Positions 29,802 to 32,880 of a stretch of DNA of 64,000 nt are shown in pieces. The notes beneath the pieces are model-generated. The model was not told the origin of the DNA and did no database searches. It was given only the letters and a program-made list of their open reading frames with translations. The stretch covers positions 62,001 to 126,000 of the forward strand of contig JAQSDX010000001.1 of the NCBI GenBank assembly GCA_029946125.1. Reading direction: 5' to 3'. Position numbers and translations under genes: made by a program. Source of the DNA: Candidatus Methylobacter titanis. GTDB taxonomy: Bacteria > Pseudomonadota > Gammaproteobacteria > Methylococcales > Methylomonadaceae. Each line of letters opens with the position of its first letter. The stretch's first letter is position 1.

Positions 29802-29861
29802 CCAACTAACGCCCACAAATAGGAGGATATTCATTCATTATTCAGTCGATTTTGATATGAT

Positions 29862-29912
29862 AAGCGGTATTCGATATCTTTTGGATATCGAGATATTTCT
29901 TGGCCTAACCGC
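29862..29912. promoter_or_regulatory. Nested inverted repeat upstream of RiPP precursor gene
   Basis: A perfect 8-bp palindrome TCGATATC / GATATCGA (29871-29878, 29884-29891) is nested inside a pair AGCGGT / ACCGCT. It lies about 65 bases before the precursor start, a likely position for an operator or a structured leader. The regulator is unknown. Confidence 0.4.
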
Positions 29913-29957
29913 TGGGAACGGATTGAAATTTATACTAATACTTTGGAGTCAAAATAC

Positions 29958-30533
29958 ATGAAAAAAATTAATAAAACCCCTTTAGCTGCTGCAATGGGTG
30001 TTGCTTTTTTATCAACTTTTGCTGTAACCGCAGTTAATGCCGAAGCTAATCCTTTCGGTATGACTGAAATGTCTGCCGGGTACATGCAAGTGGCTGCTGC
30101 CGATAAAGCGGCTGAAATGGCTTGTGGTGCGGCAATGGGTGGCATGGACAAGCCTAAGACAGCCGAAGGCGCATGTGCGGGCAACAAAGCAACAACCGGC
30201 AGCGCAAAATCTGCTGTAAAACCGAGCGAAGCTTCATGCGGCGCGATGATGAAAGACGGCAAAATGAAACCGGGCATGGAAGCAGCTTGCGGCGCGATGA
30301 TGAAAGGCAAAGAAGGCGCTTGCGGTGATATGATGAAAGGCAAGGAAGGCGCGTGTGGCGCTCAATGCGGCGAAGGCATGAAAGCTTGCGATGCTGCCAA
30401 AACTAAGGAAGGCGCTTGTGGCGCCATGATGAAAGGTTGCGGCGAAGATATGAAAGGTTGCAGCGAAATGACCAAAGGCAAAGAAGGCGCTTGCGGCGAC
30501 AAAATAAAAGCTAAAGACGCAGCGGGCAAATAA
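29958..30533 (+). CDS. Cys-rich RiPP precursor, HvfA/bufferin-like
   Basis: A 191-residue precursor with a signal peptide (KTPLAAAMGVAFLSTFAVTAVNA) and a conserved mature start (EANPFGMTEMSAGYMQVA). It has 12 Cys. Four are in exact EGACG motifs (C122, C133, C154, C179), with variants EMACG, EGACA, EASCG and EAACG around C56, C73, C94 and C111, spaced by Lys/Met-rich linkers such as AMMKGK. In the HvfA family the related EGKCG Cys residues are converted by an MNIO enzyme and bind copper. The first gene of a three-gene operon; start ATG after GGAG (29945-29948). Confidence 0.88.
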   Translation: MKKINKTPLAAAMGVAFLSTFAVTAVNAEANPFGMTEMSAGYMQVAAADKAAEMACGAAMGGMDKPKTAEGACAGNKATTGSAKSAVKPSEASCGAMMKDGKMKPGMEAACGAMMKGKEGACGDMMKGKEGACGAQCGEGMKACDAAKTKEGACGAMMKGCGEDMKGCSEMTKGKEGACGDKIKAKDAAGK

Positions 30534-30556
30534 GCTTAAGACTCGTTATTAGTATA

Positions 30557-30583
30557 GAGAGGGCATGATAATCATGTCCTCTC
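30557..30583 (+). terminator. Hairpin between precursor and MNIO genes
   Basis: A strong stem (GAGAGGGCATGAT / ATCATGTCCTCTC, complementary apart from one G-T pair) lies in the 79-base gap after the precursor stop codon. No T-run follows, so it may partly end transcription or protect the 3' end, which would give more precursor than enzyme. RiPP operons often need such an excess. Confidence 0.5.
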
Positions 30584-30612
30584 GTTCCCATCAAATCAGA
30601 TAAGGTGTTCAT

Positions 30613-31464
30613 ATGGACACAACCCAAAATCTTGTTCACGGCGCCGGTTTAGGTCTACGGCGGTCTTTTTTAAGCCAGATTGTTGAATCGCCTCCCGAAA
30701 ATGTCGGCTTTTATGAAGTCGCACCGGAAAACTGGATCACCATCGGCGGAAAATACGCTAAACAATTCCGCGCAATGACCGAACGCTTTGATTTTATCTG
30801 CCATGGCTTATCGCTGTCGATAGGCAGTACTGATCCGCTGGATGAAAAATTTGTCCGCGAAGTCAAACAGTTCATGGCCGAACATCAGATCAAGTTTTAC
30901 AGCGAACATTTAAGTTATTGCAGCAAGGACGGGCATTTATACGATCTGATGCCGATTCCGTTTACCTCGGAAGCGGTGACTCATGTTGCCGGAAGGATCA
31001 GGCGCGTTCAGGATATTCTCGAGCAAAAAATAGCCATCGAAAACGTGTCCTATTACGCCGCCCCAGGCCAGGAAATGGCTGAAATCGATTTTTTCAATGC
31101 GGTTATCGAGGAAGCCGACTGCGATGTGCTGATTGATATCAACAATATTTACGTTAACAGCGTTAATCACGGTTACGATGCCGAAGCTTTTTTAAAGGCC
31201 ATGCCGGCACACCGTATCGCTTACGCACATATCGCCGGACATTATGTGGAGGCAGAAGATTTTTTAGTCGACACCCATGGTGCCGACGTAGTCGATCCGG
31301 TCTGGAAATTACTGGGAAAAGCTTATGAACTTTACGGCGTGTTTCCGACGCTGTTGGAGCGGGATTTTAATCTCCCGGCGATGGATGAATTAATCAGAGA
31401 AGTGAACACCATCAGCGCCATACAAACCGCTTGGGGCGCACAACATGCACGACAATTTGCCTGA
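30613..31464 (+). CDS. MNIO family (DUF692) RiPP-modifying oxidase
   Basis: A 283-residue multinuclear non-haem iron-dependent oxidase with a TIM-barrel. Candidate metal-binding motifs are CHGLSLSIG, FYSEHLSY, AIENVSYY, LIDINNIYVN, HIAGH and LLERDFN. In HvfB and BufB systems this enzyme converts precursor Cys residues to oxazolone/thioamide or thiooxazole groups. It starts at ATG 79 bases after the precursor and is 6 bases from its partner. Confidence 0.93.
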   Translation: MDTTQNLVHGAGLGLRRSFLSQIVESPPENVGFYEVAPENWITIGGKYAKQFRAMTERFDFICHGLSLSIGSTDPLDEKFVREVKQFMAEHQIKFYSEHLSYCSKDGHLYDLMPIPFTSEAVTHVAGRIRRVQDILEQKIAIENVSYYAAPGQEMAEIDFFNAVIEEADCDVLIDINNIYVNSVNHGYDAEAFLKAMPAHRIAYAHIAGHYVEAEDFLVDTHGADVVDPVWKLLGKAYELYGVFPTLLERDFNLPAMDELIREVNTISAIQTAWGAQHARQFA

Positions 31465-31470
31465 GGCCGT

Positions 31471-32220
31471 ATGAGCGTCGACTTTAAAGCTAAACAGCTG
31501 GAGTTTGCAGCCTATATCCGGGATCCTGAAAACAATCCGCCGCCTGCCGATGTTCAGCCACAGCGCATAGCGATGTATCGTGAGCTGTTTTTTAATAATA
31601 TCGACAGTTTTTTGTCGGCTAATTTTCCGGTGTTGCAGACAATATTGGATGACCAACAATGGTTTCAGCTGGGGCAGGATTTTTTTGCCAAGCATGCCTG
31701 TCAATCGCCGCATTTTTCAAAAATACCGGAAGAGTTTTTGGATTACCTGCAAAACGAGCGGGATAGTTCGAATGATTTTCCGTTTATGCTGGAACTGGCG
31801 CATTACGAATGGGTGGAAATGGCTTTATCCATTGCCAAGGAAACCGTATCCGGCCGTCACCAGAATCTGGATAACCTGCAAAATCAGAGCATTCAGTTGT
31901 CTTCTTTGGCTTGGCCGCTAGCTTATCAATATCCGGTGCACAAAATATCGCCCGATTTTTTACCTGAAACCGCGCCGGAACAAGCTACGTTTCTGGTCGT
32001 TTATCGCAATCCGGATGACGAGGTTAATTTTATGGAAATCACCCCGATCACTTACCGATTGCTGGAAATAATTCAGGAGCATGAACAGGTATTAGTGACG
32101 GATTGCCTAAAGCAGGTTGCCGAAGAAATGCATCATCCCAATCCTGAAATGATTATGGCAGGCGGCTTACAGATTCTAAAAGAACTGGCTGAAAAGACAG
32201 TTATTACGGTTGCTGTTTAA
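31471..32220 (+). CDS. DUF2063 partner protein (HvfC/BufC-like)
   Basis: A 249-residue protein of the DUF2063 family, with the N-terminal DNA-binding-like fold (FAAYIRDPENNPPPADVQ, MYRELFFNNIDSFLSANFPV) and a C-terminal domain. Such proteins act as the precursor-recognition partner of MNIO enzymes. It ends the operon; no DoxX-type fourth gene (HvfD) follows. Confidence 0.9.
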   Translation: MSVDFKAKQLEFAAYIRDPENNPPPADVQPQRIAMYRELFFNNIDSFLSANFPVLQTILDDQQWFQLGQDFFAKHACQSPHFSKIPEEFLDYLQNERDSSNDFPFMLELAHYEWVEMALSIAKETVSGRHQNLDNLQNQSIQLSSLAWPLAYQYPVHKISPDFLPETAPEQATFLVVYRNPDDEVNFMEITPITYRLLEIIQEHEQVLVTDCLKQVAEEMHHPNPEMIMAGGLQILKELAEKTVITVAV

Positions 32221-32274: not shown

Positions 32275-32880
32275 CTATAACAGTAAAGTAATTAACCCGG
32301 CTTGTGAAAATGCCTGCACACATTTTTTTTCTTCATGCCAAGGATGGCCGTCAGCACCCGTAAACGTAAAGCCTAAAACTGTAATTTTTACTGATGCAGT
32401 ACCATACTGTTTCAGTATATATTTTAATGCCATATAGCCCGAGCTTGGAATTAAATTGCTTGGTTGAATAATGTTTAAATCCATGCAGGCTTCGAAGAAT
32501 AAATCTTCGTTTAAAAAAAGAATATTTTTCTGTTTAAGCTCGTTTTCTTTCAAAATAAATTTCGAATAATCAGTTTTTTTAAATTTTTTTTTGTTAAAAG
32601 GTTTTAACCAGAACTGTTTAGCCGTGCAATCGAATGGATGAGGAAACCAAATATCGATTACATCTTTAATGAAATGTAATTTTTTAATTGTTTTATATTT
32701 AGAAAATGTCCGTCCAGGATGCGAAGTATTTGCCAGGCAGAGTACATCGCATTTGTGACCTGTTAATCCTGATGCATAATTTCTTGCTTCATTAAACCTA
32801 ATGACTAAGTCGGCGCTGTCAACTAATTTGGAATGGTCGCTATTAATATCAGCATTTCCAATAACTACAATATGATACAT
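32275..32880 (-). CDS. GT29-like (sialyltransferase-like) glycosyltransferase
   Basis: A 201-residue protein beginning VVIGNADINSDHSKLVDSAD and then LVIRFNEARNY. A small-molecule-transferase pattern of this type (GN, then a D-VIRFN stretch) is seen in family 29 glycosyltransferases and related bacterial proteins. No signal peptide or membrane segment is evident. The gene is unusually AT-rich next to its neighbours, suggesting transfer from elsewhere. It faces the RiPP operon. Substrate unknown. Confidence 0.55.
   Translation of the reverse strand: MYHIVVIGNADINSDHSKLVDSADLVIRFNEARNYASGLTGHKCDVLCLANTSHPGRTFSKYKTIKKLHFIKDVIDIWFPHPFDCTAKQFWLKPFNKKKFKKTDYSKFILKENELKQKNILFLNEDLFFEACMDLNIIQPSNLIPSSGYMALKYILKQYGTASVKITVLGFTFTGADGHPWHEEKKCVQAFSQAGLITLLL

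Follow-up and report, generated by a model that had tools for sequence, protein, structure and literature searches.

The operon at positions 29958-32220 of the window, i.e., of the whole 64,000-nucleotide stretch of Candidatus Methylobacter titanis DNA that was analysed, most probably encodes a captophorin (Buf_EGKCG/oxazolin, HvfABC-type), a peptide predicted to be modified, exported, and Cu(I)-buffering. We give this reading a probability of roughly 0.7. The HvfB and HvfC profiles were matched above their cut-offs, while BufB and MbnB were not. The recently described class itself is known, and its 5-thiooxazole chemistry and copper binding have been published for relatives (PMC13097082, PMC13419390, PMC12538549, PMC12452194); new here is a lineage-specific Ala-Cys motif followed by paired Met residues. 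No literature on a captophorin-type cluster in Methylobacter was found. The genes are ordered precursor, MNIO, and HvfC/DUF2063 partner, all on the forward strand, with gaps of 79 bp and 6 bp, and the following features were assigned.

29958..30533, (+), precursor, HvfA/FonA-like, 191 aa with 12 Cys and 21 Met
29958..30041, (+), Sec-type signal peptide, with cleavage probably after VNA (residue 28)
30048..30095, (+), conserved leader/recognition block NPFGMTEMSAGYMQVA (NPF...GYMQVA)
30114..30500, (+), core with the 12 Cys, repeat form EGACGxMMKGK
30557..30583, (+), 12-bp intercistronic hairpin without a T-run, between the precursor and MNIO genes
30613..31464, (+), MNIO of the HvfB family, NCBIfam NF003818 443.6 bits (cut-off 360), Pfam PF05114 354 bits
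31471..32220, (+), HvfC-type RRE/DUF2063 partner, NF050145 318.4 bits (cut-off 142), PF09836 and PF22106

The NF003818 and NF050145 matches confirmed the reading of the earlier note that an MNIO gene is followed by a DUF2063 partner. No DoxX gene adjoins the operon. Both enzymes typical of captophorin clusters, an HvfB-family MNIO and a PME1/HvfC partner (DUF2063 + RRE), are present. Their nearest solved structures are PDB 3BWW for the MNIO (E 4.9e-72) and PDB 3DEE for the partner (E 5.8e-11), both of which the literature assigns to such clusters. The MNIO residues R16, R17, N178, D220, H222, D251, and F252 are conserved. R16/R17 correspond to R15/R16 of FonB, and the catalytic base D251 and F252 to FonB D249 and F250; N178, D220, and H222 were taken as the essential HvfB residues N175, D242, and H244 based on an alignment to 3BWW and on the spacing of D-x-H.

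Two other assignments were rejected: bufferin 1, as the MNIO reached 269.8 bits with the BufB profile, below the cut-off of 310, and no DUF2282 match was found; and methanobactin, as the MbnB profile gave 52 bits, far below the cut-off of 325, and the partner is of the HvfC type. The MbnB score also bears on the chemistry. MNIO enzymes vary in what they catalyse, and the earlier note had expected oxazolone/thioamide formation, as in methanobactin. However, this or another Cys oxidation appears extremely improbable, given this score and the fact that HvfB, FonB, and all characterised MNIO-PME1 clusters install 5-thiooxazole (PMC13097082, PMC13419390). The HvfA product itself has been reassigned to 5-thiooxazole, with −4 Da per Cys (PMC13419390, PMC13097082), which by analogy is the chemistry to be expected here.

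The best named matches of the MNIO come from Methylobacter, with 96% identity to the MNIO of Methylobacter tundripaludum SV96. An MNIO match was present in 58 of the 61 genomes searched and a close ortholog (88-100% identity) in 22 of the 23 genomes of the host genus, across which the precursor and MNIO genes were repeatedly found together. The dN/dS values against relatives were 0.03-0.06 for the MNIO, 0.11-0.19 for HvfC, 0.06-0.13 for the first 50 residues of the precursor, and 0.08-0.13 for its Cys-rich core, and selection on the operon genes is purifying. A spurious ORF or chance is ruled out by the genus-wide conservation and a dN/dS of about 0.1. In two genus members (loci L027 and L029 of genomes G017 and G016, respectively), the MNIO frames carry an in-frame TGA due to either sequencing error or decay. 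The upstream neighbour of the operon is an endonuclease III-like gene. Just 3' of the operon, 32275-32880 on the reverse strand weakly matches a family-29 (sialyltransferase-like) glycosyltransferase (25.2 bits, cut-off 23), and beyond it lies a large ORF that was read by eye as glnE.

A count in the ORF 29958-30533 agreed with the 12 Cys and the four exact EGACG motifs plus variants described earlier. The Cys residues are at positions 56, 73, 94, 111, 122, 133, 137, 144, 154, 161, 168, and 179, with exact EGACG at 122, 133, 154, and 179; the other contexts are EMACG, EGACA, EASCG, EAACG, AQCG, KACD, KGCG, and KGCS. EGKCG, the Lys-Cys repeat characteristic of captophorins, is absent from this precursor. 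As EGKCG is still present in its close relatives, the precursor was counted as a variant rather than a typical member of the class. It had no match of its own among the Pfam/NCBIfam profiles, and AlphaFold predicts it to be disordered (pLDDT 40), with no fold and no beta-helix, an outcome that is neutral towards the captophorin reading. The Sec signal peptide, another captophorin feature of multi-Cys precursors, was recognised by sequence inspection, and 88 of 93 relatives have Ala at the equivalent cut position before the NPF block. Within the leader block, PF is found in 92 and GY in 88 of the 93 precursors of the order, those of EGKCG type included; by this comparison, the leader is homologous to the leaders of EGKCG precursors in the same order, and the block may serve in HvfC binding. 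The homologous leader and the enzyme profiles uphold the interpretation of the earlier note as an HvfABC-like RiPP metallophore class with Ala for Lys, although its chemistry and its Cys expansion did not stand. Ten of the 12 Cys are directly followed by Gly or Ala. Because Gly or Ala after Cys was found to be needed by FonBC (PMC13097082), these 10 are the likely modification substrates, while Cys144 (CD) and Cys168 (CS) are less likely ones.

The motif change was surveyed in 93 non-redundant precursors of the order, banded by MNIO identity into 60-75% (n = 15 precursors, mostly from other families), 75-84% (n = 36), and 84-100% (n = 42). Lys precedes Cys at 88%, 25%, and 13% of the sites in these bands, respectively, and Ala/Ser at 55% and 73% in the latter two, while Gly/Ala after Cys is kept at 96-99% of the sites in all bands. 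Met occupies Cys+3 at 44% and Cys+4 at 63% of the sites in the 84-100% band, compared with 19% and 12% in the 60-75% band, and the Lys and Met fractions are negatively correlated (Spearman −0.35, n = 93, uncorrected for relatedness). Among 369 sampled gammaproteobacterial genomes, with just one other member of the host's family in the sample and with search spacing windows that differed (1-31 bases for EGKCG vs 15-45 for EGACG), tandem EGKCG was found in 90 genomes and tandem EGACG in the host genome only. Judged from the two surveys, the Ala motif pointed out in the earlier note is a real, lineage-restricted change in the methanotroph family. An enzyme residue behind the change was looked for and rejected, as the substrate-contact residues R16/R17/F252 are unchanged; MNIO position 172 (V vs L) best separates the Ala and Lys types and is confounded with phylogeny.

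FonBC modified the substrate EAACGEGACG in vitro and hence accepts EGACG sites (PMC13097082). Because of this, the Ala motif is, by analogy, no barrier to modification, and the in vitro tolerance of FonBC fits the natural exchange of Lys for Ala. Conversely, the loss of Lys might have turned the sites into poor substrates, leaving a mostly unmodified, Met/Cys-rich, metallothionein-like binder, with the MNIO acting on few sites or on a second precursor. The higher frequency of Met at Cys+3/+4 where Lys is lost would fit this, as would the fact that canonical sites are only some of the total and that the second precursor of the genome carries EGKCG/EGGCS. We nevertheless consider it very unlikely, since EGACG is accepted by FonBC, the MNIO retains its complete active site and has the dN/dS given above (0.03-0.06), Cys-Gly/Ala is retained at 96%, and the second cluster carries its own MNIO and partner.

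The 12 Cys, seen earlier as an expansion, are an ordinary number: relatives have 5-14 per precursor, and up to 58 have been published for the family. Short precursors (6-7 Cys) alternate with long ones (8-12 Cys) within the genus, and the module of the long form, CGEGMKAC...MKGCGEDMKGC, requires 4-8 changes on the MNIO tree. An 'expanded precursor' as a special trait was rejected on these grounds. The module's detail is common to Methylovulum and Crenothrix, which suggests that it is old and has been lost repeatedly. Similarly, the lack of DoxX, the additional gene of HvfABCX, is true of the operon but is no local oddity: none of the 51 clusters of this type in the order had DoxX within 6 kb, compared with 9 of 14 clusters of the second MNIO type and 8 of 18 others, some contigs ending inside this range. 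The search for a distant DoxX proposed in the earlier note gave genes on contigs C135 and C144 and a marginal match on C11. The C144 gene belongs to the second MNIO cluster, and no dedicated partner was indicated.

The host genome has just two MNIO genes, both HvfB-like. The second captophorin-like cluster is apparently split over contig ends (L072, G000:C6:87-407, and L006, G000:C144) and contains a precursor, an MNIO (56% identical), an HvfC-like partner, and DoxX. Its precursor has EGGCS repeats around a single EGKCGEGKCG pair; the EGGCS sites have Ser after Cys, unlike the published Gly/Ala preference of FonB. Positions 2774-4336 of L006, in opposite orientation to this cluster, encode an outer-membrane efflux (TolC-like) protein according to a by-eye reading of the translation.

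Upstream of the precursor gene, three further elements were identified.

29829..29861, (+), promoter-like block with direct repeats (ATTCATT and ATTCAGT, 11 bp apart) and, after them, an extended -10-like TTTTGATATGAT
29871..29891, (+), 5' leader hairpin 1 (SL1), 92% of cells paired, 23 sequences
29899..29916, (+), 5' leader hairpin 2 (SL2), 95% of cells paired

The promoter-like block is conserved in an alignment of about 25 species and occurs as a single copy genome-wide, with 0 in shuffles; it probably functions as a promoter. A regulon sharing the block was rejected, as the genome search gave the operon locus only. Neither a copper regulator nor a sigma factor was seen next to the operon. 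Because of this and the uniqueness of the block in the genome, the sequence gives no indication of a copper response. In the leader, 93% of the SL1 and SL2 pair cells hold in the 23 sequences, and the covariation score exceeds those of all 500 shuffles and all slides. The changes in SL1 are mostly A-U/G-U, with some two-sided ones, and those in SL2, which is missing in four relatives, are one-sided only (C-G/U-G type). The support for an RNA structure is moderate because two-sided changes are few and related sequences inflate covariation scores. The spacing inside hairpin 1 varies, which argues for the leader acting as RNA rather than as a protein operator. A covariance model of the leader matched in 22 of 23 genus genomes, with the best match 5' of the precursor and, for most members of the genus, a single strong match; weak additional matches in some genomes are regularly spaced and resemble repeat arrays. 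The leader is also present in a few neighbouring genera, while most genera of the family are without it, and Rfam gave no match for it. The region 29829-29916 (leader to 29957) is possibly a new cis-regulatory RNA specific to the operon across Methylobacter. In 68 of 85 relatives, the stretch separating the precursor gene from the MNIO gene has a folding energy 5 kcal/mol or more below that of mononucleotide shuffles, with differing stem sequences; the hairpin was not seen in the two EGKCG-type relatives checked (L045 and L047). It may raise precursor output over that of the enzyme. No published description was found for the promoter, the two-hairpin leader, or the intercistronic hairpin of the operon.

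As pmoA is present in its genome, the host is a methanotroph. Gammaproteobacterial methanotrophs need copper for the particulate methane monooxygenase, and Met-rich sites for Cu(I) are a typical feature of copper trafficking in the periplasm. In the captophorin reading, the precursor would be made with its Sec signal peptide, and HvfC would bind the NPF...GYMQVA block and hand the Cys repeats to HvfB. This iron enzyme would convert roughly 10 of the 12 Xaa-Cys pairs, most of them Ala-Cys-Gly, into 5-thiooxazoles by oxidation, and export would follow. Once in the periplasm, the peptide, modified but otherwise without structure, could bind several Cu(I) via thiooxazole thiolates, assisted by the paired Met after many sites, and thereby buffer copper. 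The Met pairs near Cys suggest a mixed thiooxazole/thioether copper site. The same peptide could alternatively serve the acquisition or storage of copper for the particulate methane monooxygenase rather than protection, as a methanotroph-specific function. The presence of pmoA, the Met-rich sites with their fit to periplasmic trafficking, the nearly universal occurrence of the cluster in the family, and the two HvfB-like MNIO genes, which leave no sign of methanobactin, would be consistent with this. On the other hand, neither an exporter nor a TonB receptor nor linkage to pmo was seen at the locus, precursors with tandem EGKCG are frequent in bacteria other than methanotrophs (the 90 of 369 class genomes above), and copper binding and a link to stress have been published for members of the class; we therefore regard this function as unlikely. 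In a genome without a methanobactin-type MNIO, the near-universal captophorin operon is a candidate for holding periplasmic copper in the family. Quite unlikely, in our view, is the more far-reaching proposal of a captophorin remodelled in gammaproteobacterial methanotrophs into a mixed-ligand EGACGxMMKGK copper peptide (thiooxazole thiolate and thioether) for copper storage or delivery in methane oxidation, controlled by a dedicated structured mRNA leader.

Among the known systems, methanobactin (MbnABC) shares the MNIO superfamily, methanotroph hosts, and copper with the Methylobacter operon and differs in that the MNIO here is below the MbnB cut-off, the partner is HvfC-type, and no transport genes were seen. 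The bufferins Buf1 (DUF2282) and Buf2 (6/12 Cys) likewise combine an MNIO and a DUF2063 partner with a Sec signal peptide and a copper role, whereas the Methylobacter precursor has no DUF2282 match and its MNIO is under the BufB cut-off. Oxazolin (HvfABC) of Haemophilus influenzae has the same precursor, MNIO, and HvfC genes (NF003818 + NF050145) and a secreted multi-Cys repeat precursor; it has EGKCG sites and DoxX, in contrast to the EGACG/EAACG/EASCG sites followed by Met pairs, without DoxX, of Methylobacter. Fontiphorin (FonABC) and gonophorin, of the captophorin class, have in common with it the Xaa-Cys-Gly repeats, the catalytic base, and the substrate-contact residues, while their natural motif is EGKCG and the Methylobacter precursor has Ala for Lys at most sites and a Met-rich core. 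Bulbicupramide (MmrABC) of Microbulbifer is made by an mmrABC cluster, with no DoxX mentioned in the text of its paper. Its EGKCG repeats, with 5-8 EGKCG Cys, are modified to copper-binding thiooxazoles. Under copper, expression of mmr was absent, and the cluster afforded no clear protection against the metal, which speaks against a simple copper-response account of the Methylobacter operon. Met-rich repeats are not described for bulbicupramide in that text, whereas the Methylobacter core has them.
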